Positions 8,680 through 41,256 of a stretch of DNA of 64,000 nucleotides are shown piece by piece (the first letter of the stretch is position 1; each line of letters begins with the position of its first letter). The notes beneath the pieces are model-generated. The model worked only from the letters and a program-made list of their open reading frames with translations, did not search any database and was not told the DNA's origin. Origin of the DNA: an uncultured Alphaproteobacteria bacterium (GTDB lineage Bacteria > Pseudomonadota > Alphaproteobacteria > Bin95); the NCBI GenBank assembly GCA_938083135.1, contig CALLKY010000066.1, forward strand, positions 1 through 64,000. The letters are read 5' to 3'. The position numbers and the translations under genes are program-made.

Positions 8680-9318
8680 ATGAGAGCGTCGAGAGAACAG
8701 CAGCAGGGTTTTACCCTGATTGAACTGATGGTGGTTGTCTCCATCATCGGCGTTCTGTCGATCCTGGGCGTCCCCCATTTCCGCGCCTACCTGCTGGATG
8801 CGCGCCTGAGTGATGCAGTGCCATATCTAACAGATATCGCCGCCCGCAATCGCATGCACTTCATCGAAACCGGCAAATACTGCTGCGACTTAGATCCAAC
8901 GAACGAAAAAAATATCATTGGCGAACTGAGGGCACCACTCGATGACGTGGGCGACTTTTGCTTCATGATCGTGTGCAAGGATTCTAACCTTTGCCCAATC
9001 GTAACAGCACCCAATTTCATTGCCGCCGATGAAGCAGCAGACGCTGGTGCCGAGTTCGAGGTTTGGGCACTTCTGCGCCAAGTCTCAACCGGCTCAATTG
9101 ATGGCCCAAGCGGCAGCACCTGCAAAGTACAGGCGACAAAGCGCCCGCCTACGGGCCTGGCTCAGCCAGCCGCGTCAGGAAAGCCAGGACGCCAAGGTCA
9201 AGCTGTTGTGTTGCGCTACCCAGCGCCCGCAAATGGGTTAGACACGACGACTGGAAACGGTGGCCATCGCTACAATTGGGACGCTGGGATCAGCAAGACC
9301 AATGCGCTCCACCCGTAA
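8680..9318 (+). CDS. Type II/type IV prepilin-like protein (pilin 1)
   Basis: 212 residues. The leader is ten residues, then the prepilin peptidase site G|FTLIELM with Glu at +5, then a hydrophobic helix (MVVVSIIGVLSILG). This marks a pseudopilin or pilin that PilD-type enzymes cleave and methylate. The globular part has six to seven cysteines (CC at about 67-68), unusual for a GspG/GspH-like protein. It is the first gene of a six-gene run that includes its own prepilin peptidase. It keeps Glu5, so it may be a main-shaft subunit; which one cannot be told. Confidence 0.85.
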   Translation: MRASREQQQGFTLIELMVVVSIIGVLSILGVPHFRAYLLDARLSDAVPYLTDIAARNRMHFIETGKYCCDLDPTNEKNIIGELRAPLDDVGDFCFMIVCKDSNLCPIVTAPNFIAADEAADAGAEFEVWALLRQVSTGSIDGPSGSTCKVQATKRPPTGLAQPAASGKPGRQGQAVVLRYPAPANGLDTTTGNGGHRYNWDAGISKTNALHP

Positions 9319-10060
9319 ACCCAGCGCCCTGCAGCGGGGCTTTACTTTGATTGAGGCGATGACGGCGGGCCTAGTGCTTTCCATCATCACCATTGGATTG
9401 ATGAGTGCATGGAGCGTCGCTGGCGCCAACGTGAATGATCTAGTCATCCGTGAGAAAGCTATCTGGACTCTAAACGGGCATATGGAACGAATTTCAGCCC
9501 TGTACCAATTCACAGACTTCGGCGCTTTCGGCGTAGCGACATCCACCGCATACGATTATCCAGCAGCTTACAATGACACCCGAATGATCTTTGGCACCTT
9601 CGCTGATTCAGCAATGGCACCGCCCGGAACACTCCCATTGCTCAAGCCATTCGCAGGCGAGGCAAATGGGCTCGTTGAATCACCAAACGCCTTCGAAGCC
9701 AAAGAAGGGTATCCGGTCGTTCTATTCGATTCCCAGCTTTCATCCGTTCGGAGGAATTATGTGTGGATTGACCGCCCTAAGAACATTGTCGGCCGTTTAA
9801 GCTGGGAGTTGACAGATATCGTTGTGGCTCTGTGCGACAGCGACAACCAACCTGGCGGAAACCAAAATTGCCGATGCTTAAATTTCGCACATAATGCAGC
9901 TGACCCTGCTCCGGGGAAAGATAGCGGCGTATTCTGCAAGGAAATCCAATTGGCGTTGGAATTTCCGCTGCGCTGGAATGAAGCGGATAATACCGTTAAG
10001 GCAATGCCGCAACCGACAGAAATCCTCACCCTGCGAACAATTGTGGGGCGTGTCCAATGA
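9302..10060 (+). CDS. Prepilin-like protein (pilin 2, PilV/GspI position)
   Basis: 252 residues from ATG 9302; the gene overlaps pilin 1 by 17 bases. The leader ends in RG|FTLIEAM (Glu at +5), followed by a helix TAGLVLSIITIGLMSAWSVAGA. The C-terminal domain is large, with a Cys cluster near residues 180-200 (CDSDNQ, CRC). By order and motif it fits the minor pilin PilV/GspI slot. An earlier start at 9260 exists but would lengthen the leader without reason. Confidence 0.8.
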   Translation: MRSTRKPSALQRGFTLIEAMTAGLVLSIITIGLMSAWSVAGANVNDLVIREKAIWTLNGHMERISALYQFTDFGAFGVATSTAYDYPAAYNDTRMIFGTFADSAMAPPGTLPLLKPFAGEANGLVESPNAFEAKEGYPVVLFDSQLSSVRRNYVWIDRPKNIVGRLSWELTDIVVALCDSDNQPGGNQNCRCLNFAHNAADPAPGKDSGVFCKEIQLALEFPLRWNEADNTVKAMPQPTEILTLRTIVGRVQ

Positions 10061-10689
10061 TGCGTCGGCGCTCCAAGCAATCTGGGTTCACAACGGTTGA
10101 ACTTGCCTTCGCCGGATTGATCGCAGCTGGCCTGACGCTAGTTGGGTTGAACCTGTTGATCACCAGCATGGATATGAAGGCCGACTTAGACGGGCGCGTG
10201 CGCGCAAACCGCGCCGCCAGAGTGGCTATGACGACCTTAACCGAAGGCGCGGCAATGACATCTGCTGGCACAGATGGGTTCAGCATTGCGCACGGCCTGC
10301 GCAATCGCGCAGGTGCCCCTGCTGTAGCACTGGCAGATGGCGAGGTGCTGGAAATGACATCTAATGGCCTGACAACGTCTGGCGAGAAAAATAGCGCTGT
10401 TAACGTCACTTGCCTGGCACCTGGCGATCCAGCACCTGCCTGCACGATTGCTGGTGAGACCGTAGTGCTAAACGGCCCAATCGCTGCAATGCCGTTGTTT
10501 CAAGACAAATCCCGAACGGTACTTGGCAAAACCGTAGAAATGGAACTACGCGTCCAGGACCCCTGGGCCGCAGCACGGGGCATCCGCCGGATTGAGCGCT
10601 ATGGCGGCATGGCGATCTATAACGCCGCTGAAGGCGAAGGCACGCCCGGTGGCGGCACCGACACAATCAATCCGGCAGGGGGCAACTGA
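10057..10689 (+). CDS. Prepilin-like protein (pilin 3, PilW/GspJ position)
   Basis: 210 residues, ATGA overlap with pilin 2. The leader MMRRRSKQSG precedes FTTVELAFAGLIAAGLTLVG, a processing site with Glu at +5. A PilW/GspJ-like helix (NRAARVAMTTLTEGAAM) follows, then a beta domain with a Cys pair about ten residues apart (CLAPGDPAPAC). The C-terminus is Gly/Thr-rich and probably flexible. Confidence 0.8.
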   Translation: MMRRRSKQSGFTTVELAFAGLIAAGLTLVGLNLLITSMDMKADLDGRVRANRAARVAMTTLTEGAAMTSAGTDGFSIAHGLRNRAGAPAVALADGEVLEMTSNGLTTSGEKNSAVNVTCLAPGDPAPACTIAGETVVLNGPIAAMPLFQDKSRTVLGKTVEMELRVQDPWAAARGIRRIERYGGMAIYNAAEGEGTPGGGTDTINPAGGN

Positions 10690-11325
10690 GTGCGCCAGAC
10701 CGTTCATTCCGCACAGAAGGGCTTTGCATTGCTGCTGGTCATGGTGATCGGCACAGTCGCGCTTTACGCCGCCACCGGCCTGATCGGCAACGGTACCGCT
10801 ACAGAACGCGAGGCCCAGGAACGTGAGCTGCTAAAGCTCCGTGCCTATTGGGCTGGCATGGGTCACATTAACTACGGCATGAGCCGGGCTCGGCAGGGTC
10901 CCCCATGCGGCGGTAAATGTAAAAACATGGTGAACTGGGAAGATTTTTTCGTCGAATCAACGCAGGAACTTAACGAGTACGAGAAGGGCGCTTTTAAGGG
11001 CGCCGGGAATGGTCGAGACCGCCATTGGATCTATCCCGAAATTTCACCGGACTACTTCATGCCCCTGCATTTGCATTCAGAGTTTATCACCGGTGAATCG
11101 AAAATTGAGCTCCGTGTTCACTATCAAGACCCGGGTCCAGGCGGCAAAAATGCCGTCGTATTAAATCACCCCTTCATCAACAGGAATTGGCATATCCGTG
11201 AAGGTTTCGCAGCCATAATCTGCGTTGGATTGGCGGACTTTACGACGCCATGTGCGACCAACAACAAAGATATGGACCAAGAAAGCAGCCTGATGCGCGT
11301 CGTGCGCATGGAGCCCAGAGAGTAA
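10690..11325 (+). CDS. PilX/GspK-like minor pseudopilin (pilin 4)
   Basis: 211 residues starting with GTG directly after the preceding TGA. The cleavage site is KG|FALLLVMVIG and lacks Glu at +5, the feature that sets PilX/GspK tip subunits apart from the others. A basic/acidic helix (EREAQERELLKLRAYWAGMGHINYG) follows, as in PilX. The C-terminal region has four cysteines. In GspK-like systems this subunit caps the pseudopilus and pairs with the two preceding minor pilins. Confidence 0.75.
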   Translation: MRQTVHSAQKGFALLLVMVIGTVALYAATGLIGNGTATEREAQERELLKLRAYWAGMGHINYGMSRARQGPPCGGKCKNMVNWEDFFVESTQELNEYEKGAFKGAGNGRDRHWIYPEISPDYFMPLHLHSEFITGESKIELRVHYQDPGPGGKNAVVLNHPFINRNWHIREGFAAIICVGLADFTTPCATNNKDMDQESSLMRVVRMEPRE

Positions 11326-11705
11326 TGCATGACCAAATCGCTCCAGATCCCGAAATCAAACCGCTAGTTCAATCCAGCGCGGATGAAAGGCGGACTGATG
11401 TTCGCTATGCGCTTGTGGCACCGGGCCTTGTTGCGGACCGAACGGGCGTCCATGACTGCATCGTCGTTGATATTTCGCTTGGTGGCTGCATGTTGGAGGG
11501 GGAATTTCATATGCGGAATGGCATGGAGGTCGCGGTTGGCGTTGATAGCCTGATGGGGCTGCTGGGCGAGATTGTTCACGCAGGCCCAGGCTTTGTCGGC
11601 GTGAAGTTTCACACGTCGCCAGACCGACGGAACGATATCCGCACCTGGATCGCCGCCCGCCTGAAAATCGCCCGCGCAGGCGCAGACCCTGGCACTGGCG
11701 CATAA
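11325..11705 (+). CDS. PilZ-domain protein
   Basis: 126 residues from ATG 11325, overlapping the previous stop (TAATG). A PilZ domain is visible with the two c-di-GMP-binding motifs: RRTDVRY (RxxxR class) near residues 22-28 and DISLGG (D/NxSxxG) near 50-55. It therefore probably binds cyclic di-GMP and may tie the pilus-like system to second-messenger levels. It is a small single-domain protein encoded inside the pilin operon, just ahead of the prepilin peptidase. Confidence 0.85.
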   Translation: MHDQIAPDPEIKPLVQSSADERRTDVRYALVAPGLVADRTGVHDCIVVDISLGGCMLEGEFHMRNGMEVAVGVDSLMGLLGEIVHAGPGFVGVKFHTSPDRRNDIRTWIAARLKIARAGADPGTGA

Positions 11706-11712
11706 CGGTCCC

Positions 11713-12594
11713 ATGGATGCCGCTGCCCAGACCCTACAGGCCTTCGCCAGCCTGCCACCCGCTGCGCTCATCACGTTGAGCGTCGTGTTCGGCTGCTTAA
11801 TCGGCAGTTTCCTGAATGTCGTCGCACACCGATTGCCGCTGATGATCGAGGCAGAGGAAGCGGGCGGTGATGCATCAGGCCTCAGCCTCTCCTACCCTGC
11901 CTCTCGCTGCCCAGACTGCGGCCATAGCCTGAGCTGGTATGAGAATATTCCGCTGGTCAGCTTCCTGTTGCAGGGCGGCAAATGCCGGCATTGCGGCACG
12001 GGTATTTCCTGGCGCTATCCAATGCTGGAAGCCACGGCTGGCGTTCTCGCTGGCCTTGCCGTATGGCAATTCGGCCTCAGCCTCCACGCAGCCGCGATAA
12101 CAGCCTTTCTTCTAGCCCTCCTAGCGCTGACGGCGATTGATCTGGATACGGGCCTGCTGCCAGACCGCATCACCTTGCCACTGCTTTGGCTCGGCCTCAT
12201 CGCAGCCGCTGCCGGCCAAGGGCCAGCGCCCGCAAGCGCAATCCTGGGCGCTGTCATTGGGTACCTAACCCTCGACGCCCTGAACCGGATCGCTCGGCTA
12301 TTGACGGGGCAGGACGGCATGGGCGGCGGGGATATGAAGATGGCGGCGATGATGGGCGCTTGGCTGGGGCCAGAAGCCCTTGCGGTCGCCCTGTTCATCG
12401 CCTGCGCCAGTGGTGCGGCTTACGGCGTCGCCATGCGCCTGATGGGTTCAAGCGGGAGCGCTCTCGACGATACCGATGTTCCCGAGGGCGCAATGCCCTT
12501 TGGTCCATGGCTGGCTTTAGGTGCAGCGATCCTGGCACTTTGGCCAGAGGTCGCGGACTTCGCGATGCAATGGGTGCTTTACGGCAGCTATTGA
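11713..12594 (+). CDS. Prepilin peptidase / N-methyltransferase (A24 family)
   Basis: 293 residues, about eight TM segments. The N-terminal cytoplasmic domain has the two CxxC pairs (CPDC near residue 61, CRHC near 91) that bind zinc and belong to the methyltransferase part. The two catalytic aspartates are in AIDLDTGLLPD and GGGDMKM. It cleaves the leaders of the four prepilins upstream and methylates the new N-terminal Phe. It ends the plus-strand run and overlaps the convergent lipoprotein gene by seven bases. Confidence 0.93.
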   Translation: MDAAAQTLQAFASLPPAALITLSVVFGCLIGSFLNVVAHRLPLMIEAEEAGGDASGLSLSYPASRCPDCGHSLSWYENIPLVSFLLQGGKCRHCGTGISWRYPMLEATAGVLAGLAVWQFGLSLHAAAITAFLLALLALTAIDLDTGLLPDRITLPLLWLGLIAAAAGQGPAPASAILGAVIGYLTLDALNRIARLLTGQDGMGGGDMKMAAMMGAWLGPEALAVALFIACASGAAYGVAMRLMGSSGSALDDTDVPEGAMPFGPWLALGAAILALWPEVADFAMQWVLYGSY

Positions 12595-13433
12595 GGCGGC
12601 GGCGCAAAGACTGGCAGCGGCGCAGAATATTCAAGCGCAATACCATCAGACCGCTGCAATGCGCCCGTACCTTCAGATGGCCGCGTGTTGAGTTGGGCGT
12701 CCTGCTGCGGCTGGCGCGGCCGAATAGGCATTGCTGTCGCCGTTTGTTCAATCGGCGCAGGCTCCCGAATATCAGCGACGAAATCACCACTTGGCGCGAA
12801 GCCCGTTAGGACACGACTACCAATGGGCTTATCGCCATAACGGTATTCCAGCCGCACATAATTGCGGACCTCTGGCGCATACCACCAGCGTTCAAAACCC
12901 GTCCAGCCGGTTTCAGGATTGCGGGTGCGCATGACGATGACATAGCAGTCAAAGTCACCCGCAGGCACGCTGATGCGTTCCTTGCTCTCAACGACCCAAG
13001 ATGTCGAATGCACACGGGTTTTACCATTGGCGGTGAATTCCCGCGTGAACACCAGCGGCGCGCCAGAATTCAGCGTTGCCGCCGCGCTGACCGGGATCGA
13101 CCGATACACCACAGACCGCACTGTCGTAGCCGATTGCGCATCCTGACGGAGGAAGCCTTTGCGGCTGAACCATTGCTCTGGTTCATCCGTCCGCCGGAAC
13201 GACGTAACGCCGCCATCCGCCTGCGCCACTGCAAGGCCGTAGCCGTCACTATAGGTCCAGGTGTCGCCGACCTGCCAGACAGGGGCGGCGACTGTCAGCA
13301 CTTCAGAAGATTGCGCCGCCGGGCGCGCGTCACTTGCACTTGGCCCCTCCTTCAGGGCAACGCAGCCGCTTAGCCCAATCGCAGCAACAAGTGCCGCGGC
13401 GGATACAGTCCAACTTAACTTCCCGCGAGCCAT
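12588..13433 (-). CDS. Lipoprotein of the secretin operon
   Basis: 281 residues. The signal peptide ends in LSGC (Cys24). The middle part (residues about 50-225) looks like a beta-rich domain (WQVGDTWTYSDGYG, VPAGDFDCYVIVMRTRNPETGWTGFERWWYAPEVRNYVRLEYRY) of the type often found in bacterial lipoproteins, and the C-terminus is Pro/Gln-rich and disordered. It is the last gene after the secretin and the one-TM protein. It may act as a secretin-associated lipoprotein (pilotin-like), but this rests only on position. Confidence 0.7.
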   Translation of the reverse strand: MARGKLSWTVSAAALVAAIGLSGCVALKEGPSASDARPAAQSSEVLTVAAPVWQVGDTWTYSDGYGLAVAQADGGVTSFRRTDEPEQWFSRKGFLRQDAQSATTVRSVVYRSIPVSAAATLNSGAPLVFTREFTANGKTRVHSTSWVVESKERISVPAGDFDCYVIVMRTRNPETGWTGFERWWYAPEVRNYVRLEYRYGDKPIGSRVLTGFAPSGDFVADIREPAPIEQTATAMPIRPRQPQQDAQLNTRPSEGTGALQRSDGIALEYSAPLPVFAPPPQ

Positions 13434-13834
13434 TTGCCCTCCGATACTGATCCTTTGAGATCAATCTGGCGCTCATAAATCATGGCCGGCAGCCAAAAAC
13501 TGCTTACGGCTTTAGAGGATGTCATGGCGCGCACTTGCAGGCGGCCCTCATCCAGAATGCGGGCTTGCATGGTGATCCGATTATCTTGGGCTGCCGCCGA
13601 AACTTCAGACGGGCTGAATGCCTCGTGCCGTACCAGTTCCGCCCGCTGCGAGGAGATCGCGGTATCAACAGCAGACATTACATCTTTGCGAAATTCAGCC
13701 ACGTAGAAATGCTCGTGCGCAAGCGGGCCAGCAAACGCCAGCACGAGCAGGCCAAGGCCAATTGCCCATCCGCTTGCCCGCGCTGTTTCCTTCAGCATCG
13801 CCAGTTGGAAGGCGGTTTTGCTGCTCCCCGCCAT
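13415..13834 (-). CDS. One-TM protein between secretin and lipoprotein
   Basis: 139 residues. After a short cytoplasmic start there is one TM segment (about residues 22-41), then a periplasmic helix (YVAEFRKDVMSAVDTAISSQRAELV) and a short beta part. The start codon overlaps the secretin stop (TAATG), and the 3' end overlaps the lipoprotein gene by 19 bases, so the three are translationally coupled. The layout resembles small bitopic assembly proteins (PilN/PilO/GspM-like), but no family is recognised. Confidence 0.65.
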   Translation of the reverse strand: MAGSSKTAFQLAMLKETARASGWAIGLGLLVLAFAGPLAHEHFYVAEFRKDVMSAVDTAISSQRAELVRHEAFSPSEVSAAAQDNRITMQARILDEGRLQVRAMTSSKAVSSFWLPAMIYERQIDLKGSVSEGKWLAGS

Positions 13835-15768
13835 TAGGATTCGTCCTCTTCCAACTCAGAGAGGAGGCGAAACGGTCGGCTGGTGGTCCGCACTTCAGCG
13901 TCTGGATTAGCCAGCATGCTTTCGCTCGCCCGGTCCAGAGTGCGCCTGCGCGACGCCACATAATCTGGCGTGCCAAGGCGGGTCGCGATATCGCTGCCGA
14001 ATGGGCCAGCTCCTTCAACAATGCGCGGCGTAATGAAGAAAATTGTTTCAGACAACGCGCTGCTGGCGGTGTTTTCTTTGAACAGACGCCCAAGCACCGG
14101 CACGTCTTTCAGGCCCGGCACGCCAGATTCCCGCTCGCGTCGTTCATCATCGAACAGGCCGCCAATAATGTATGTGCCGCCATTCGGCACCAGCACTTCG
14201 GTTTGAACCTCCTGGGAGCGCACGTCGATCTGTCCGAACACACCCGCGCCCGGTGCCGAATTGATGGCATTCAAGTTCAAACGGATCAGATTTCCCTCAC
14301 CAAGGGCAATCGCGGGGACGATAGACGGCGTGATCTCAAGCGTTAGCCCAGTTTCAATCTGCTCCAAGCTTTGGCCCTGGTCGCCGCCAGCATCCACCTG
14401 CACGAAAACATCCTGGGATCGTGTGATCCGGGCCGTGCGGTTATCCAATGTCACCAGGCGCGGGGCCGAGAGCACCTGCGCTTTGTTTTCTTCCGCCAGC
14501 GCCTTCAATTGCACCTGCAGAATGCTTGATGCACCGCGCACAACGAAGGCCGCAATCGTGCTGGATGCACCAACTGCGGGAAGCAGAGACAGGGCGTTCA
14601 AGCCATCGGAATCAAATAGATTGGCCGCGTCATTACCGACCTGCCCACCGCTGCTACCAGTATCCCCGGCAGCGCTGCCATTGGCATTACCGCGCTGGGT
14701 CGCGGAACCCCTGAGCGCTACACCCAATTCCTCTGCCACGCCAAGGCTGGCCGTCGCGATAATCACCTCAATCTCAATCATCTTCAGCGGCTGATCGAGT
14801 TCGCGGATAACCTGGGCAATCGTGGCCACGTCGCCCGGGCTGCCGCGCACGATGACGGAATTGGTGCGGCGATCAATCGAAATACGGGGACGGGCCAATT
14901 GTGAGACCCGGCGTTCGAATGCAGCGTCGGTTTCACCAGAACGTGCAGCAGCTGAATCCCCGTCGCCACCAATGTTCAGGTCGCCAATGATCGCTTTCAG
15001 CGTATCGGAGATGCCCGGCACTGTGACGGACCGGCCATGAAACTGCCGCGTCGTTTCACCCACACTGGCAAATCGCAGCGGGATCACGCGGACTTTGGCG
15101 TTGGCGATCTCAGCATAGGTATCCGCTTCCAACTGGTCGCGACGCGCCGCCTGCTGTTGCTTGATCGCTGCCTGATCCGTCTCGATACGAAGGGATGCCG
15201 CTGTTTCGACCTGATTGATCAGAGCGGTGATTTCCTTCACCCGGTCGGACCGGCCCTTAAGGGAAACGGTATTCGTCGCGGCATCAAACGCGACGCCTTC
15301 CAGACCAAGCCCAAACCGGACCAGCATTTCTCTCAGCGCCGGATAGCGGGTATGCGTCAGCGCGATAAAAACCCGCTCCGGCGGATCGAAATTCACGGCG
15401 GCGTCTTTGTAGACAGTAACCGTGCGGGTATCCGCATTATATTCATATGCCAGCCCGCGCTCAGTCATGAGCTGCTCAAACGCCTGGCCCGGGCGCACTT
15501 TATCGAACCGGAGCGAAATTGGCCCTTCAACCCCAGGCCGGAAAATCGCCGAAAGCCCGTTGGCCCGCAGCAAAGAGCGCAGGATAGATCGCACGTCGTC
15601 ATCAACCGAAGTACGGCTAAAACGGACATCTGGGCGCCACGGGATTGTGTCTGCAAAAGCGGGTGCAGACAGGCCCAATAACGCGATGGCCACGATGAGC
15701 TGCGCACATTTTCGCCGCAATCTCCATGCAACGATCCGCGCCAGCGTGTGTTTAAGGTCTAACAACAT
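13834..15768 (-). CDS. Secretin (GspD/PilQ superfamily)
   Basis: 644 residues. A signal peptide ends near residue 39 (AFA|D). Periplasmic N-domains follow: an STN/N0-like part (IRSILRSLLRANGLSAIFRPGVEG), then ALTHTRYPALREMLVRF and ISIDRRTNSVIVRG. The secretin core begins around residue 330 (MIEIEVIIATASLGVAEELGV) and carries the signature VPNGGTYIIGGLFDDE...GVPGLKDVPVLGRLF and SETIFFITPRIV at about 545-600. It should form the outer-membrane channel of the nearby pilin system. No C-terminal pilotin (S) domain is obvious. Confidence 0.92.
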   Translation of the reverse strand: MLLDLKHTLARIVAWRLRRKCAQLIVAIALLGLSAPAFADTIPWRPDVRFSRTSVDDDVRSILRSLLRANGLSAIFRPGVEGPISLRFDKVRPGQAFEQLMTERGLAYEYNADTRTVTVYKDAAVNFDPPERVFIALTHTRYPALREMLVRFGLGLEGVAFDAATNTVSLKGRSDRVKEITALINQVETAASLRIETDQAAIKQQQAARRDQLEADTYAEIANAKVRVIPLRFASVGETTRQFHGRSVTVPGISDTLKAIIGDLNIGGDGDSAAARSGETDAAFERRVSQLARPRISIDRRTNSVIVRGSPGDVATIAQVIRELDQPLKMIEIEVIIATASLGVAEELGVALRGSATQRGNANGSAAGDTGSSGGQVGNDAANLFDSDGLNALSLLPAVGASSTIAAFVVRGASSILQVQLKALAEENKAQVLSAPRLVTLDNRTARITRSQDVFVQVDAGGDQGQSLEQIETGLTLEITPSIVPAIALGEGNLIRLNLNAINSAPGAGVFGQIDVRSQEVQTEVLVPNGGTYIIGGLFDDERRERESGVPGLKDVPVLGRLFKENTASSALSETIFFITPRIVEGAGPFGSDIATRLGTPDYVASRRRTLDRASESMLANPDAEVRTTSRPFRLLSELEEDES

Positions 15769-20806: not shown

Positions 20807-21724
20807 ATGCAGATGGATGCGCTGAACAGCGTGGACGATGTGCGTGCGCTGCTGGCCAGTGGCCGCTACGTCTCAGATGACAGCTTGGCGACGGCGCTCT
20901 ACCTGTCGCTGAAGCTTGGTCGGCCATTATTTCTGGAAGGCGAAGCTGGCGTTGGCAAAACCGAGATTGCCAAAGTCCTTTCGGATACGCTTGGCCGCCG
21001 TTTAATCCGCCTCCAATGCTACGAAGGCCTCGATATCGCATCCGCTGTGTACGAGTGGAACTATCAGCGCCAAATGATCGAAATTCGCGTGGCCGAGGCG
21101 GCTGGTGCCACAGACCGCGATACACTTGGCGGCGATATCTTCAACGAACGCTTCCTGATTGAGCGCCCGATTCTGCAGGCCATGCGCCCGCACCCCGAAG
21201 GTCCGCCAGTTCTGCTGATTGATGAACTTGATCGCGCTGATGAGCCATTTGAAGCCTTCCTGCTCGAAGCATTGTCTGAATTCCAGGTGACGGTGCCAGA
21301 GATCGGCCCGATTAAGGCCGCAGCACCGCCGCTGGTTATCATTACGTCCAACCGCACCCGTGAAATCCACGACGCCTTAAAGCGCCGCTGTTTCTACCAT
21401 TGGGTAGATTTCCCAACCGCTGCCCGTGAACTGCAAATCCTGGCGCTAAAAGCGCCCGATGCGAATGAAGACCTATCCCGCCAAATCGTGACATTCGTGC
21501 ATCGCCTGCGCGCCATGGATATGTTCAAGCAGCCGGGCGTCGCCGAAACCATCGATTGGGCAAATGCGCTGATGCAGTTGAACGCCATCGCCCTTGAGGC
21601 GGATACCGTTTCAAACACGCTCGGCGTATTGCTGAAATATCAGGATGACATCCAGAAGCTCCAAGGTGGTGAGGCCAAGCGGATTCTGGATGAAGTGCGC
21701 CAGGAACTGGCGGCGGCTGACTAA
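20807..21724 (+). CDS. coxD: MoxR-family AAA+ ATPase, CoxD-like
   Basis: 305 residues; GGGGGG lies upstream of the ATG. Walker A GEAGVGKTE (about residues 45-53), Walker B VLLIDELDRAD, sensor 1 ITSNRTRE, and the MoxR lid. In carboxydotrophs CoxD is an ATPase needed to mature the Mo-Cu-S site of CO dehydrogenase, with CoxE and CoxF. The next gene is a CoxE VWA protein, and XdhC genes follow, so a cofactor-maturation role is well supported. Which hydroxylase it serves is unknown. Confidence 0.85.
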   Translation: MQMDALNSVDDVRALLASGRYVSDDSLATALYLSLKLGRPLFLEGEAGVGKTEIAKVLSDTLGRRLIRLQCYEGLDIASAVYEWNYQRQMIEIRVAEAAGATDRDTLGGDIFNERFLIERPILQAMRPHPEGPPVLLIDELDRADEPFEAFLLEALSEFQVTVPEIGPIKAAAPPLVIITSNRTREIHDALKRRCFYHWVDFPTAARELQILALKAPDANEDLSRQIVTFVHRLRAMDMFKQPGVAETIDWANALMQLNAIALEADTVSNTLGVLLKYQDDIQKLQGGEAKRILDEVRQELAAAD

Positions 21725-22974
21725 TGCTGGACGAGCCCGCAAATGTGCTGCGGGAGCCCGCGTCTGAGGATGGCCGACTGGCGGAAAACGTCGCCCATTT
21801 CGTCCGTGCCCTCCGCCGTGCTGGGCTGCCGGTCGGGCCAGGGCATGTCCTCAGAGCGGTCGAGGCGCTTCGCACAATCGATATCATGGACCGTGAAGAA
21901 TTTTATTGGGCGCTGCATGCCAGCCTGATCACGCGGCAAGGCCAGCGCGAAGTTTTCGACCAAGCGTTCCATATGTTCTGGCGCAGCCCAGACTATCTTG
22001 AGCGCATGATGGGCATGCTGCTGCCGACGCTGAAGGTCGAAGACGAAGCGCCCGCAGACAAACGTGAACTTTCCCGCCGTGTCGCCGATGCACTGGCCCC
22101 TGCCCCACCGCAAGCGCCAGAGGGTAAGCCACAGGAAGAGCTTGAAGTCGATGCATCGATGACGTTCTCGACCAGCGAGGTCCTGAAAACTATCGATTTC
22201 GACAGCATGTCGGCAGATGAGGAGGCCGCCGCCAAACGCGCCATGGCCCGCCTCACCCTGCCCTTGCAGGACTTACCAACGCGCCGCTTTCGTCCCGATG
22301 CAGACGGACGCCGTGCCGACCTCCGCGCCAGTTTACGCTCAGCACTTAGGGGCGGGCCCGGCGTCATTCCTTTGAAGCGCAAAACGCCGCGCACCCGCCC
22401 GCCACCCCTGGTCGCACTGTGCGATATCTCAGGCTCTATGGCCCGATACTCCAGGATGCTGCTGCATTTTCTGCACGCGCTGAGCTCAGACCGGGACCGC
22501 GTCCACAGCTTTGTATTCGGCACCCGCCTAACAAATGTCACCCGCCATCTGCGCGGGCGCGACGTTGATTTGGCACTGGAGCAAGTGGCAAAATCCGTGG
22601 ACGATTGGGAAGGCGGCACCCGCATCGGCTGGTGTCTGGAGCGCTTCAACAAGGAATGGTCCCGCCGCGTATTGGGCCAGGGTGCAGTTGTTCTGCTGAT
22701 CACGGATGGCCTTGATCGCGAGTCTAACGAGGTGCTCGCGGCGGAAGCAGAGAGGCTTGCTAAATCGTGCAGAAGGCTTATCTGGCTAAATCCGCTTTTG
22801 CGCTATGATGGGTTTGAGCCGAAGGCTGGCGGCGTGCGCGCAATCCTTCCACATGTGGACGAATTCCGCGCGACGCATAACTTAGAGAGCTTGGAGGCGT
22901 TGGCAGCTGCATTGAGCGGCCCAGCGCCTGTACTTGGGGCAAGAGGAGCAGATCAATGGCTGCGACAGATGTAA
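21724..22974 (+). CDS. coxE: VWA-containing protein, CoxE family
   Basis: 416 residues, overlapping coxD by one base (TAATG). The N-terminal half is helical (FVRALRRAGLPVGPGHVLRAVEAL) with a charged linker. The C-terminal VWA domain has a MIDAS loop (DISGSMARYS, near residue 238), followed by a HSFVFGTRLTNVTRHLRGRD region and LLITDGLDRESN. MoxR ATPases and VWA proteins act together as chaperone pairs; CoxE/CoxD are one such pair. The 3' end overlaps the XdhC gene by 19 bases. Confidence 0.88.
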   Translation: MLDEPANVLREPASEDGRLAENVAHFVRALRRAGLPVGPGHVLRAVEALRTIDIMDREEFYWALHASLITRQGQREVFDQAFHMFWRSPDYLERMMGMLLPTLKVEDEAPADKRELSRRVADALAPAPPQAPEGKPQEELEVDASMTFSTSEVLKTIDFDSMSADEEAAAKRAMARLTLPLQDLPTRRFRPDADGRRADLRASLRSALRGGPGVIPLKRKTPRTRPPPLVALCDISGSMARYSRMLLHFLHALSSDRDRVHSFVFGTRLTNVTRHLRGRDVDLALEQVAKSVDDWEGGTRIGWCLERFNKEWSRRVLGQGAVVLLITDGLDRESNEVLAAEAERLAKSCRRLIWLNPLLRYDGFEPKAGGVRAILPHVDEFRATHNLESLEALAAALSGPAPVLGARGADQWLRQM

Positions 22975-23312
22975 CGTCCACGATAGGACCAGCGGAAACA
23001 CACGAAATTATTGGCCAAGCACAAGTTTGGCGACGCGCCAAGAAAGGCGTGGCCATTGCGACGGTGGTCTCCACCTGGGGCTCCAGCCCCCGCGCAATTG
23101 GCTCACAACTGGTCGTGAATTCGGACGGCGCATTCCTGGGCTCTGTGTCCGGCGGTTGCATTGAAGGCGCTGTCGTCACCGAAGCGTTAGATGTGATTGA
23201 GGACGGCAAACCCCGGATGCTGGATTTCGGCGTCACGGACGCACAGGCCTGGGAAGTTGGTTTGGCATGCGGCGGCAAAGTCGAAGTGTTTGTTGAACGG
23301 GTTGGCCAATGA
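22956..23312 (+). CDS. XdhC-family protein, N-terminal domain (CoxF part 1)
   Basis: 118 residues, ATG 22956 after GAGGAG. This is the XdhC_CoxI domain alone: AKKGVAIATVVSTWGSSPRAIGSQLVVNSDG, GSVSGGCIEGAVV, and GLACGGKVEVFVE with the conserved CGG. XdhC binds molybdenum cofactor and passes it, sulfurated, to xanthine dehydrogenase-type enzymes. The Rossmann half is the next gene (ATGA overlap), so the two probably assemble into a complete CoxF/XdhC. Confidence 0.88.
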   Translation: MAATDVTSTIGPAETHEIIGQAQVWRRAKKGVAIATVVSTWGSSPRAIGSQLVVNSDGAFLGSVSGGCIEGAVVTEALDVIEDGKPRMLDFGVTDAQAWEVGLACGGKVEVFVERVGQ

Positions 23313-24010
23313 GGTCCAAAACACTTGATAGGCTAGCGACCCTTGCCCAGGAAAAGCAGCCAACCGCACGGGTCGTCCGCATCTCTGACGGTCGGGAAAC
23401 GCTTGTACGCCCGGACCGGGTTGAAGGCGACCTTGATGCGCCGTCAGACGTCATTGTAGCAGCCCGCGAAGCCCTTCGGAGCGACCGGTCCGGCATGGTC
23501 CCGCACGGTAATGAGCGGTACTTCATCCATGTGCATAATCCACCGAGACGGATGATCATCGTCGGTGCCGTGCATATCTCGCAGCCTCTAGTCGCAATGG
23601 CGCGGGAGGCTGGGTTCGACGTGACGGTGATTGATCCGCGCGGCGCATTCGCCACCGTCGAGCGGTTTCCTGATGTAACACTGATGGACGATTGGCCGGA
23701 CGACGCCATGGGTGCCCTTAAGCTTGATACACGCACGGCTGTGGTCACCCTAACCCATGACCCCAAGATTGATGATCCAGCCCTCGCTGCTGCAATGCAT
23801 TCGCCTGCCTTCTATATTGGCGCGCTTGGCAGCCGCAAAACCCATGCGAGCCGATTGATCCGCCTTCGGGATCAAGGTTTTGATAGCCGCAAGCTTGACC
23901 GCATTCACGGCCCCATTGGCCTGAATCTTGGTGGGAGAGCACCGGCAGAGATCGCCGTTTCCATTCTGGCGGAAGCGCTGATGACCCTGCATGGCGGCAG
24001 CGTGAAGTGA
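23309..24010 (+). CDS. XdhC-family protein, Rossmann domain (CoxF part 2)
   Basis: 233 residues. The XdhC_C Rossmann fold begins near residue 80 with MIIVGAVHISQPLVAMAREAG and continues DVTVIDPRGAFA, VVTLTHDPKIDDPAL and FYIGALGSRKTHASRL, ending in the conserved GRAPAEIAVSI. The first loop reads GAVH where many XdhC proteins have GAGH. It is coupled to the N-terminal half and overlaps the next gene by four bases. Confidence 0.87.
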   Translation: MRSKTLDRLATLAQEKQPTARVVRISDGRETLVRPDRVEGDLDAPSDVIVAAREALRSDRSGMVPHGNERYFIHVHNPPRRMIIVGAVHISQPLVAMAREAGFDVTVIDPRGAFATVERFPDVTLMDDWPDDAMGALKLDTRTAVVTLTHDPKIDDPALAAAMHSPAFYIGALGSRKTHASRLIRLRDQGFDSRKLDRIHGPIGLNLGGRAPAEIAVSILAEALMTLHGGSVK

Positions 24011-25650
24011 GGTTCGGGCCGGAACCGGCAAGCGAGGCGGCAGGCGCATATCTGGCCCACTCAATCCGGCTGGACCGCCGGACCTTCAAAAAAGGCCGCC
24101 TGCTTTCCGCCGACGACATCAAGGTCTTGGTCGCCGATGGCGTTGGCGAGGTCACTGTCGCGCGGCTTGAAGATAGCGATGTCCATGAAGACAAAGCAGC
24201 CGCGCGCCTGGCGGCAGCCTTGGCAGGCAGCGGCCTAAAGATCAGCGCCGCATTCACCGGCCGCGTGAACCTGATTGCGGATTGCAGCGGCGTGCTGACC
24301 GTAGACGCTGATTGCATTAACCGCATCAACGCCGTGCATGAAAGCGTCACCGTTGCCACACTTGCCGCTTATGCAGCAGTAAGCCCAAGGCAGATGGCAG
24401 CGACGATCAAGATCATTCCGTTTGCAGCGCCGGAATGGGCCGTCGCCGAAGCGGAAGCCATCGCGAGCGCAAGCGCACAAGCCCTCGCCGCCCATCCATA
24501 CCGCCCAATTCGTGCGGCATTGATCCAATCGACCCTGCCAACGGTGAAACCAAGCGTCCTTGATAAAACCGTGGACGTGACTGCAGCCCGGCTTACAGCG
24601 CTTGGCGGCGTTCTCGTTGATGAGCGCCGCGCACCCCACGATGCAACAGCAATCGCCGACGCCATAAAGGCGGCAGATACGGTCGAGGCAGATATCCTGT
24701 TAATCGCGGGCGCATCCGCAATCGTTGATCGGGCCGACGCCCTGCCAGCAGGGATCGAGCAAGCCGGCGGCACTGTGCTGCATTTCGGCATGCCAGTTGA
24801 TCCAGGCAATCTCATTATGCTGGCAGAGCGGAACGGCAAGCCCGTGATCGGCCTGCCCGGCTGCGCGCGCTCCCCCAAATTGAACGGTTTTGACTGGGTG
24901 TTGCAGCGATTTGCAGCAGGCGTGCCAGTAACGCCGCAGGATATTCAGGCCATGGGCGTCGGCGGGCTTTTGGCTGAAATCGGCGCGCGCCCATTGCCCC
25001 GCGCTGAAGCCACCCGCACGCCCGCAGACACGCAGCACGCCCCCAAAGTCGCTGCCATGGTGCTTGCCGCTGGGCAGTCCCGCCGCATGGGCCAAGCGAA
25101 CAAGCTGCTGGAAGCGGTTGATGGCCGGGCGATGGTCGTCACCGCCGTTGAAGCCGCGCTGGCGGCGGACGTTTCCAGCGTTACGGTCATCACGGGCCAT
25201 GAAGCGGATGCGGTGCAGGCAGCCCTTGCAGGCAAACCAGTCCGCTTCGTCCACAATCCGGATTACGCAGACGGCCTCAGCGCATCGCTCAAGACCGCTG
25301 CCGCCAATGCGCCAGACACCGCAGATGCCATGATCGTGCTGCTCGGCGACATGCCAGACGTCACCTCTGCCCATGTCGATCGCCTGATCGCTGCATTTAA
25401 TCCGCTAGAAGGGCGCGCGATTTGCGTGCCGACTGTTGGCGGCAAACGCGGCAATCCCGTGCTTTGGGCCAAGCGATTCTTGGCAGAAATGCTGGCACTG
25501 CGGGGCGATGTTGGTGCCAAACACTTGATCGGCCAAAACGAAGATGTTGTGGCCGAGGTCGAGATGGGCGACGCTGGCGTTCTGAACGATGTTGATACGC
25601 CAGAAGCGCTCGCCACAGTCAGAACACGCAGCAATTCCGGTTCTGAATAA
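24007..25650 (+). CDS. Molybdopterin-binding / MobA-like nucleotidyltransferase fusion
   Basis: 547 residues from GTG 24007, overlapping the previous stop. Residues about 1-330 form a MoaB/MogA-like molybdopterin-binding region (AYLAHSIRL, FKKGRLLSADDI, then LIAGASAIVDRADALPAGIEQAGG and GMPVDPGNLIML, a MoCF pattern). From about residue 345 a MobA-type NTP transferase follows with the LAAGQSRRMG signature (from residue 352) and LLGDMPDVT. Such fusions are found with Mo-hydroxylase genes and probably make or load the cytosine-dinucleotide form of the cofactor. It ends the maturation set. Confidence 0.85.
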   Translation: MRFGPEPASEAAGAYLAHSIRLDRRTFKKGRLLSADDIKVLVADGVGEVTVARLEDSDVHEDKAAARLAAALAGSGLKISAAFTGRVNLIADCSGVLTVDADCINRINAVHESVTVATLAAYAAVSPRQMAATIKIIPFAAPEWAVAEAEAIASASAQALAAHPYRPIRAALIQSTLPTVKPSVLDKTVDVTAARLTALGGVLVDERRAPHDATAIADAIKAADTVEADILLIAGASAIVDRADALPAGIEQAGGTVLHFGMPVDPGNLIMLAERNGKPVIGLPGCARSPKLNGFDWVLQRFAAGVPVTPQDIQAMGVGGLLAEIGARPLPRAEATRTPADTQHAPKVAAMVLAAGQSRRMGQANKLLEAVDGRAMVVTAVEAALAADVSSVTVITGHEADAVQAALAGKPVRFVHNPDYADGLSASLKTAAANAPDTADAMIVLLGDMPDVTSAHVDRLIAAFNPLEGRAICVPTVGGKRGNPVLWAKRFLAEMLALRGDVGAKHLIGQNEDVVAEVEMGDAGVLNDVDTPEALATVRTRSNSGSE

Positions 25651-38532: not shown

Positions 38533-38787
38533 CAGTCGGGTTTCCTCATATCAGTAAAAGTTCTGGAACGAAGCATGCCTCAGGCTCTCACAAGCCGCAA
38601 TCGGGCGGCGTATCGAACCACTTAGCCAAACCTGGAAAGCACACTGAGTTTGTTGCAAAATCAAGCAAACACCACTTTTGAAAACTTGTTTCACGTATGC
38701 AAACATGAAATATTTGCTACCCGTAAACTCAATCTTAATGCAATTGTGTCGCTGCAATGTTGCAAAGAGCCCGAAGGGCCTTCAATC

Positions 38788-41256
38788 ATGCTAAACCCCA
38801 TCCTTCTCGCTGAGCTAGACGGTTCAGACGGTTTTGTTTTGCAAGGGGACCCAGATTTTCCCGCCGCTGAACTTTCAGGCAACGGCAATCGTGGCTTTTA
38901 CTTAGATGGTGGTGGCGACGCTAACGGAGATGGATTCGCTGATATCCTTATCGGCGGATTTGGGAGTCCGTCTCGCGGCGGATTGTTGTTTGGCGACGGG
39001 GATGCTTTTAGCGCCACGATAGACATGAGCTCTTTCGATCTTCCTGGGTCACAAGGCCTTCGTTTCAATGACTTCAACGGTACTGAAAGCGGATTTAATG
39101 TCGGCGTAGGAATGCTGGGCGACATAAATGGCGACGGGCTAGATGACATCGCATTTGGCTCAATCTTCGAGCATACAAACGCCCCAGGATCTGTAAATGA
39201 CGATGGAGTTGTTGCTGTCGTTTTTGGTTCCGCAGATCTGTTCGGCCATCCACCGATTACCGGGACGTCACTTGATGGTTCAGATGGCTTTAGAGCGAAT
39301 GGTTTCAATACCCAGGTAATTGGGACCAACGACGCCGGTATCACTAATGAACAAGGTGCAGGTGAGCACATTGTGAATGCAGGCGACGTCAATGGTGATG
39401 GTATCGCCGATTTTGCCGTAGCCGCCAGCAATAGCGATCCTCGATTGGCGACTGACTCCGGGCAAGCCCATATCGTTTTCGGCGGAACGGCCCCGCGGCC
39501 TGCGGAATTCACACTAGATGACCTGAATGGCGCTGATGGATTTTCAATTACAGGTGTTGCCCGCTTAGACGGCCTAGCAGTTCGTGGCGCATTCGGTGAT
39601 TTTAATGGCGACGGCTTTTCGGATGTTCTTGCCGGTTCGGCGGATGCAAATGCCTACGGCATCGACGACACGGGCGAAGGCTATTTGCTATTTGGTGGAG
39701 CAGCCGCCCGAACACCCAAGATATACGCTGGCTCACTGGACGGAAGCGATGGCTTCTCAATCCATGGCACTGGGGCAGAAAGTCATCTTGGCATAGGACT
39801 TGATGGTTCCGGTGACTTCAATGGCGATGGCTTTGATGATTTATTGATCGGAGCGTATACCGCAACCGCGTTGGGGCGCGACAGTTCTGGCGCTGGATAC
39901 ATCATATTTGGCCATGATCAAGTAACGCCACGGCGATTTGACATTGGAACTTTGGATGGATCTAACGGCTTTGAGATCGCTGGCCATGCGCCCGAAGACC
40001 GGACCGGTCGCGAGATTTCAAATGCTGGAGATTTTAACGGCGACGGCTTCGATGACATCCTAATTGGCGCGGACTTCCTTGACCGTGAATTCACGTCTGA
40101 CCAAGCAGCCGCTTACAATGTAGGTGGCGCATTTCTGATTTATGGCAGCGAATCTGGCACGCCAGCCTCAATAGATCTTGCAAGACTTGACGCAAGCGAG
40201 GGCCTTCGCTTCGAAGGCGAGACCCAGGATGATCGCGCTGGCGTAGGCGCACGTGGCGTGGGAGACGTAAATGGCGATGGTTTCGCCGATATCGCCCTCG
40301 GCGCTGTCAGGGCCGATTCTAACGGTTACAGCGATAACGGCGCCGTCTATGTAGTCTTTGGTCGCGCATCAGACCCAAGAGCAATTGAGGGTACGGCGGT
40401 AAGCGAAACTCTCACAGGCAATGGCGCTGACAATGTGATTGTTGCAGGCCAGGGCAATGATCATATCCGGGCTGGCAACGGCGCAGATGGCGTGCATGGC
40501 GGCCATGGCAATGATGTTCTTTGCGGTCATGCGGGCGACGACCGGTTATTCGGGGACGTCGGGGACGATATTCTGGTCGGCAGCTTAGGCAATGACCTTC
40601 TGCGCGGCGGTAAAGGTGCGGATAAGCTCGCCATTGGTACGGGTGCAGATATTGCCTTCGGTGAAGAAGGCAACGACACCTTCTTCGCCGCTCCCGATGA
40701 ACTTGGCGCTGGTGATCGCTTATTCGGCGGCCTTGGTCAGCAAGATATTCTGATACTGACAGCAGCCGGAACGGTCGACCTTGGCGCACTTGATATGTTT
40801 ACCGGCATCGAACGCATAAAAACGAGCGCTGCTGGAAATATGGTGACTGGCGCTGACAGCACGCAACCAACCACATGGTTCGGCCAGTCTGGCGCGGATG
40901 ATCTAACGGGTGCTGCCGGGCGCGATATCATGCGTGGTGGCAGCGGTGATGATGTGCTCTCCGGCGGTCTCGGCAATGACATACTAGATGGCGACAGTGG
41001 CCGGGACACATTAACCAGTGGTGCTGGCCGGGACATCTTTGTGCTGGGTGTCGGCGAAGGCATTGATACCGCTTTGGATTTTGAAAACGGTAGGGACCGG
41101 ATTGACCTGCAGGCCTTCAATTTCTCCAACTTCGCTGGCGTTCAAACCAAGATAGCGACCGTGAATGGAGAGACAGCTTTTACGGCAAGCGGCTCCCGCC
41201 TATTCCTGATCGGCGTCGATATCAGCGACCTAGATGCCGGAGATTTCATTCTCTAA
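38788..41256 (+). CDS. FG-GAP beta-propeller / RTX repeat protein, type I secreted
   Basis: 822 residues from ATG 38788 with AAGGG upstream; the frame upstream to 38650 is AT-rich and unlikely to be coding. Residues about 15-540 hold seven FG-GAP repeats, each with D-x-N-G-D-G-(F/L/I)-x-D (DANGDGFADI, DINGDGLDDI, DVNGDGIADF, DFNGDGFSDV, DFNGDGFDDL, DFNGDGFDDI, DVNGDGFADI), enough for a full seven-bladed integrin-like propeller. RTX nonapeptides follow in two blocks, then a C-terminal secretion domain ending in DLDAGDFIL, as in the RTX protein at 35799. It is probably a Ca2+-loaded surface adhesin or matrix protein. Confidence 0.9.
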   Translation: MLNPILLAELDGSDGFVLQGDPDFPAAELSGNGNRGFYLDGGGDANGDGFADILIGGFGSPSRGGLLFGDGDAFSATIDMSSFDLPGSQGLRFNDFNGTESGFNVGVGMLGDINGDGLDDIAFGSIFEHTNAPGSVNDDGVVAVVFGSADLFGHPPITGTSLDGSDGFRANGFNTQVIGTNDAGITNEQGAGEHIVNAGDVNGDGIADFAVAASNSDPRLATDSGQAHIVFGGTAPRPAEFTLDDLNGADGFSITGVARLDGLAVRGAFGDFNGDGFSDVLAGSADANAYGIDDTGEGYLLFGGAAARTPKIYAGSLDGSDGFSIHGTGAESHLGIGLDGSGDFNGDGFDDLLIGAYTATALGRDSSGAGYIIFGHDQVTPRRFDIGTLDGSNGFEIAGHAPEDRTGREISNAGDFNGDGFDDILIGADFLDREFTSDQAAAYNVGGAFLIYGSESGTPASIDLARLDASEGLRFEGETQDDRAGVGARGVGDVNGDGFADIALGAVRADSNGYSDNGAVYVVFGRASDPRAIEGTAVSETLTGNGADNVIVAGQGNDHIRAGNGADGVHGGHGNDVLCGHAGDDRLFGDVGDDILVGSLGNDLLRGGKGADKLAIGTGADIAFGEEGNDTFFAAPDELGAGDRLFGGLGQQDILILTAAGTVDLGALDMFTGIERIKTSAAGNMVTGADSTQPTTWFGQSGADDLTGAAGRDIMRGGSGDDVLSGGLGNDILDGDSGRDTLTSGAGRDIFVLGVGEGIDTALDFENGRDRIDLQAFNFSNFAGVQTKIATVNGETAFTASGSRLFLIGVDISDLDAGDFIL

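Follow-up and report, generated by a model that had tools for sequence, protein, structure and literature searches.

A pilin and secretin locus as the probable tip and outer-membrane island of a dispersed type IV filament machine with a possible phospho-switch

The DNA studied here (the window) is a stretch of 64,000 nucleotides from an uncultured alphaproteobacterium (contig CALLKY010000066.1, assembly GCA_938083135.1), and our subject is a pilin and secretin locus at positions 8680–15768. All nine open reading frames (ORFs) of the locus lie where the original prediction placed them, with neighbours almost overlapping, and the plus- and minus-strand operons converge with a 7 bp overlap. ORFs, motifs and Pfam matches confirm the predicted content: three prepilins with Glu5 and a GspK-like one, a PilZ protein, the prepilin peptidase PilD, and a convergent group of secretin, one-transmembrane-segment (one-TM) protein and lipoprotein (Table 1). 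Prepilin 1 passes the cut-off of PF07963 (N_methyl) and the other three pilins fall below it; prepilin 2 likely starts at the ATG at 9302 in preference to the GTG at 9260. PilD has both the CxxC pairs and the GxGD motif.

Two other alphaproteobacterial genomes, G103 (locus L077) and the one that carries locus L095, have orthologues of all nine genes in identical order and likewise convergent, and because this order and arrangement are kept, the set is not a chance assembly. Prepilins 1, 2 and 3 share 43–48%, 31–35% and 29–31% identity, respectively, with their counterparts in these two lineages, and the homologues of prepilin 4, at the same place, likewise lack Glu5; this pilin is expected to act as a tip cap. 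The predicted richness in cysteine holds for prepilin 1, whose six cysteines are invariant at every position across the three lineages. Also retained in all three are the PilZ motifs RxxxR and DxSxxG, from which, by family knowledge, binding of cyclic di-GMP (c-di-GMP) is predicted. The secretin is 45–46% identical to its orthologues (47% for that of G103 in a class-wide search). The lipoprotein, at 45–48% identity in other alphaproteobacterial lineages and 38–51% in another class, ranks among the best conserved accessory genes of the system; its model, of low confidence (mean predicted local distance difference test score, pLDDT, 58), resembles the lipoprotein YmcC (2in5, E 6e-4), and we infer a pilotin-like role for it as a candidate partner of the secretin. 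The model of the one-TM protein (pLDDT 78.5) has a pilin-like outline, and a fold search with it gave weak matches, including the pilins 8tum and 5v23, with none at E<=0.001.

Table 1. Genes of the window locus, islands of the window genome and ends of the insertion in island C
Feature	Location	Strand	Description
Prepilin 1, 212 aa	8680..9318	+	GF|TLIEL, Glu5, 6 Cys; first of GspH-I-J-K-like set
Prepilin 2	9302..10060	+	Glu5, 4 Cys; GspI/PilV-like position
Prepilin 3	10057..10689	+	GF|TTVEL, Glu5, 2 Cys; GspJ/PilW-like position
Prepilin 4, GspK/PilX-like	10690..11325	+	GF|ALLLV (GFALLLVM), without Glu5, 4 Cys
PilZ protein	about 11322..11705	+	PF07238 E 7e-10
Prepilin peptidase PilD	11713..12594	+	A24_N (PF06750) E 4e-32; Peptidase_A24 (PF01478) E 4e-24
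Lipoprotein	12588..13433	-	LSGC lipobox; weak DUF3108_like match, E 5e-5
One-TM protein	13415..13834	-	Long N-terminal helix and small beta sheet
Secretin	13834..15768	-	PF00263 E 1e-38
Island A	Window		Four minor pilins, PilZ, PilD, secretin, one-TM protein, lipoprotein
Island B	C100		Major pilin, Ser/Thr kinase-FGE fusion, GspE/PilB, GspF/PilC
Island C	C5/C49 junction		PilM-PilN-like fusion, PilO-like protein with C-terminal GspB/C-like domain
Island D	C59		Histidine kinase-FHA and PP2C phosphatase, 4 bp overlap
Insertion ends	L090:1-145 and L091:1-140 (C5 and C49 ends)		Within pilM-pilN-like gene

The locus had been described as lacking an ATPase and a platform protein. This is true of the window: neither gspE nor gspF lies near the locus, and genome-wide family searches place none on its contig. 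It does not hold for the genome (G000; 4.15 Mb, 163 contigs, 99.99% complete), which has exactly one of each above cut-off. The sole gene of the T2SSE family (PF00437) above cut-off, of the GspE/PilB type, lies at C100:13994–16327 and is followed directly by the sole T2SSF (PF00482) platform gene; the order on C100 is major pilin (GFTLVELMVVVSIIG), a fusion of a Ser/Thr kinase with an FGE domain (kinase-FGE), GspE and GspF. This GspE has Walker A and Walker B motifs, two CxxC pairs and an MshEN domain (PF05157, E 3e-7). The window's secretin is the only one found in the genome, and the two N_methyl matches above cut-off genome-wide are prepilin 1 and the pilin on C100. Class III-leader pilins, prepilin peptidase, extension ATPase and platform protein are thereby all present; these four are the core proteins of the type IV filament superfamily, and the minimal core excludes PilMNO (PMC10191384). 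There is no PilT-type retraction ATPase among the PF00437 genes above cut-off in the genome.

Genome-wide family searches also revealed no TadA-type ATPase above cut-off and no second platform protein, so that the Tad-type gene mentioned in the original prediction is unconfirmed, and we reject borrowing of a Tad motor for the window genome, which has a GspE and GspF of its own. That the locus is a motorless half system running on a motor taken from another pilus, Tad or otherwise, as had been suggested, is highly improbable: the L095 genome does combine a pilin and secretin half and a truncated PilMN with a TadA-type ATPase as the only one found, but G103 has a complete machine plus a separate Tad locus.

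It is the G103 locus that ties the pilin and secretin genes to the motor genes. In this distant alphaproteobacterium of a different family, found by the class-wide secretin search, the whole set is contiguous in one locus of ~26 kb on one contig: four pilins, PilZ and PilD, convergent with lipoprotein, one-TM protein and secretin, and then a PP2C phosphatase, a histidine kinase with an FHA domain (HK-FHA), a PilO-like protein, a PilM-PilN-like fusion, GspF, GspE, kinase-FGE and major pilin. Every component has a counterpart in the window genome, about 17 in total, spread over four islands with internal order kept (Table 1). Because G103 holds all of these genes contiguously and in the same order within each island, we take the four islands to be one type IV filament machine, of which the window locus is very probably the tip-pilin and outer-membrane island. 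The idea of one half of a split system is thus borne out. The motorless reading falls with the ATPase and platform genes tied to the locus in G103, a link that the original prediction had itself named as a refutation, and ‘minimal’ does not describe a machine with PilMN-like, PilO-like, kinase, phosphatase and FHA proteins. The genome search that had been proposed for gspE/pilB, gspF/pilC and pilMNOP ended at C100 for gspE and gspF and at C5/C49 for PilMN- and PilO-like genes; the proposed check of gene order found the same order in G103 and L095.

In the third alphaproteobacterium, locus L095 is likewise contiguous, with the PilN part, PilO, PP2C, secretin, one-TM protein and lipoprotein convergent with PilD, PilZ and the four pilins. 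Since the locus is contiguous in both lineages, the dispersed state of the window's genus is likely derived; a second species of the genus, G003, shows the same islands, bordered by the same genes, in the parts that were read. Genes of the type IVa pilus (T4aP) are normally spread over several loci (PMC6668835). Dispersion as such is hence not unusual; the features that stand out are a kinase-FGE conserved next to the motor and the fusions of FHA domain and motor described below. As a separate observation on the L095 genome (G394), its truncated PilMN stands beside an hsdR-like fragment (L095:1–3745), and with a TadA-type ATPase but no GspE found it may represent a genuine half system, or its assembly may be incomplete. 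The same genome carries, by reading of the sequence, genes like those of the type VI secretion system (T6SS), namely TssM, TssL, TagF, PP2C and kinase genes (L103:1711–12551).

The system extends beyond the class. Earlier searches for secretin orthologues within the class and across all genome contigs used single sequences or strict patterns, which were too narrow, and gave few matches; a secretin profile of three rows, run against 398 genomes of the phylum, matched nine genomes outside the class (E 1e-52 to 1e-102). Where contigs allow, the order in these relatives is secretin, one-TM protein, lipoprotein, major pilin, kinase-FGE, GspE, GspF, ExeA/MshM-like and MshN/GspB-like genes, pilins 1–4, PilMN and PilO. 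In a tree of GspE proteins, seven from the system group in a single clade (100/100), separate from those of the type II secretion system (T2SS), HofB and Neisseria PilF; plasmid searches supplied anchors for this tree and no member of the system. The family occurs in two or more classes of the phylum and is apparently an unnamed lineage of type IV filament machines.

An ordinary T2SS, building an endopilus, that has scattered and diverged, with the kinase as a neighbour of no special role, is an improbable reading of the same genes. Its GspE does score higher with the T2SS model (TIGR02533 GspE, 476 bits, cut-off 630) than with PilB (TIGR02538, 438 bits, cut-off 676), its GspF reaches 246 bits with the T2SS GspF model (cut-off 424), no PilT was found and the PilO-like protein has a GspB/C-like domain. 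However, GspE, GspF and secretin of the window genome all miss every curated NCBIfam equivalog or subfamily cut-off of T4aP, the mannose-sensitive haemagglutinin (MSHA) pilus and T2SS; the secretin is nearer PilQ (TIGR02515, 208 bits, cut-off 284) than GspD (188 bits, cut-off 351); the GspE proteins lie outside the EtpE/Leisingera T2SS clade; and the kinase-FGE gene adjoins GspE across classes.

The components of a threonine phosphorylation pathway accompany the machine: a Ser/Thr kinase, a PP2C phosphatase (below the Pfam cut-off in the window genome) and an FHA protein. The kinase-FGE fusion (Pkinase E 3e-33, FGE E 5e-48) has the catalytic motifs HRD, DFG and VAIK. In three of the five GspE proteins scanned from another class (L123, L126 and L129), an FHA domain sits at the N terminus (E 5e-12, 1e-14 and 4e-18), and the GspE of L130 starts with a stretch similar to this domain; repeats such as EDEATVVR and DDATMVRS lie between FHA domain and motor. 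The tails of GspE in the window genome (DDDQTFDPD, GDDQTLMDT and ADDETIADD) and in G103 (EEDETVFEQ and SSDETVFEP among them) carry acidic-Thr-hydrophobic motifs, three in each genome and four to six in three relatives; the tails of 21 other GspE, 807 residues in all, contain none. In each of the two HK-FHA proteins, one such motif precedes the FHA domain by about 34 residues.

Gene content, gene order, dispersion and the GspE clade are observations; family knowledge lets us infer how the parts would work together. PilD would cleave the pilins, the four minor pilins would form a tip complex of the H-I-J-K type capped by the pilin without Glu5, and GspE, acting on GspF, would add major pilin beneath this tip, through the PilMN/PilO frame and the secretin. 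Because there is no PilT-type retraction ATPase, a non-twitching filament is expected, adhesive (MSHA-like) or secretory. The kinase next to the pilus motor may switch it: its substrates would be threonines of the HK-FHA protein, of the disordered N-terminal GspE tail, or of both; the FHA domain, on the histidine kinase here and fused to GspE in several relatives, would read the phosphothreonines; PP2C would reset the switch; and PilZ would add control by c-di-GMP. We regard this phospho-switch, taken by itself, as nearly an even call. Slightly more tentative is the wider proposal of a separate type IV filament family in which kinase-FGE phosphorylates multi-threonine GspE tails, FHA domains on the motor or its partner histidine kinase read them and PilZ joins c-di-GMP to the circuit.

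Several points weigh against this picture. Both phosphorylation and filament production are predictions. The island D PP2C is weak (PF13672, E 6e-5, slightly below the Pfam cut-off), and one relative has an FGE-TIR fusion in place of kinase-FGE beside GspE (L124:11546–12982). The kinase-linked GspE tails of L122 and L129 have no motif; in shuffled tails, the observed counts were reached in 0–4 of 2,000 shuffles for five proteins and in 34 of 2,000 for G003, numbers that are optimistic because the motif was defined after some tails had been viewed (that of L130 past its first 60 residues was unread before then). The PilN and PilO assignments are weak by sequence, family and structure searches having given nothing beyond remote matches (PilM, 2ych, E 0.0035; PilN, E 0.17; GspB-type domain, E 0.0024). 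Finally, island C is damaged in both species of the genus and may be decaying there. The pilMN gene of G000 is split by an insertion with inverted ends (GAGCGGATTTGGAT), a duplicated TA and transposase-like ends at both contig ends, which we read as a putative transposon of the IS630 type (insertion sequence, IS). In G003, two deletions affect the N/O end (L092:4823–6311): one of 65 bp between GGCCAAGC repeats, joining O to the N frame, and one of 2 bp, which disrupts O.

Given the pilMN insertion, the G000 copy of the machine may be impaired. A step further, that the lesions in both species mark a decaying relic which no longer assembles, is in our judgement unlikely, albeit less so than an ordinary T2SS. 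The ratio of non-synonymous to synonymous substitution rates (dN/dS) between G000 and G003 is 0.025–0.15 for all parts compared, and 0.05–0.08 for M and N on both sides of the insertion; the genes have therefore been under purifying selection. An ATG supplied by the IS end could allow the PilN-like half to be made as a protein of its own, the minimal core cited above excludes PilMNO, and the island C lesions may in part be assembly errors or population variants. The major pilin (L005:17924–18559), at a dS of 1.13 between the two species versus about 0.4 for other genes, suggests allele replacement or diversification.

Elsewhere in the window, MoxR-like, VWA, XdhC-like and molybdopterin/NTP-transferase genes lie together at 20807–25650, as in carbon monoxide dehydrogenase maturation clusters, and an 868-aa protein with FG-GAP and RTX calcium-binding repeats is encoded at 38650–41253.

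Little is known about how the extension motors of pili are turned on and off. The dispersed machine described here appears to belong to an undescribed lineage of type IV filament machines with a Ser/Thr phospho-signalling unit of its own, and with a kinase beside the motor and FHA-motor fusions in relatives, whether phosphothreonine acts directly as a switch on a motor of the GspE/PilB class can be tested on purified proteins; if true, a phospho-relay of eukaryote-like type, linked to c-di-GMP sensing, would switch pilus extension. The case also illustrates that a single-locus machine can scatter into four islands, each retaining its internal gene order, and that the motorless appearance of a pilin and secretin locus can be an effect of the window chosen. 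A search of the literature, with subscription papers outside its coverage, for a kinase- or FHA-linked GspE/PilB motor in bacteria returned only class III CpaF of the Tad system and archaeal ArnA.

With MSHA and T4aP the system shares the HIJK-type minor pilins, PilD, a GspE/PilB with MshEN, GspF/PilC, a PilMN/PilO-like frame and a PilQ-like secretin, and the relatives of another class also share ExeA/MshM-like and MshN/GspB-like genes with MSHA; the G103 locus and the four islands showed neither MshM nor MshN, and the rest of the genome was not searched for them. It differs from both in lacking a detected PilT, in missing all NCBIfam PilB, PilQ and MshL cut-offs, in its fused PilM-PilN, in its dedicated kinase-FGE, PP2C and HK-FHA, and in a motor clade of its own. 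Common to it and T2SS are the absence of PilT, a GspE and GspF that score highest with the GspE and GspF models, and four minor pseudopilins in H-I-J-K order; the missed cut-offs, the PilQ-leaning secretin and the position of the motor outside the T2SS GspE clade set it apart, and no gspC- or gspL-type gene was recognised, PilMN-like and PilO-like proteins (the latter with a C-terminal GspB-type domain), known from remote matches only, standing instead. The TadA ATPase and TadB/TadC platform pair of the Tad pilus were not found.

TagR has an FGE-type domain. As in the T6SS threonine phosphorylation pathway of PpkA, PppA, Fha and TagR (PMC5995506), a Ser/Thr kinase, a PP2C, an FHA protein and an FGE-type domain are here encoded with a secretion machine, but they are attached to a type IV filament motor, the FGE domain is fused to the kinase, and a histidine kinase or GspE carries the FHA domain. 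GarA/OdhI and Bdellovibrio DgcB, switches made of a tail and an FHA domain (PMC6733907), likewise have a threonine in a disordered tail beside that domain; these control metabolism or a diguanylate cyclase, whereas a pilus motor is the proposed target here. Class III CpaF/TadA, a Tad motor with an N-terminal FHA domain (PMC12019362), likewise combines the motor ATPase of a type IV filament with an FHA domain and a disordered linker; the present system differs in having a GspE/PilB-class motor with GspF, an adjacent kinase gene and, in its alphaproteobacterial members, the FHA domain on the histidine kinase.

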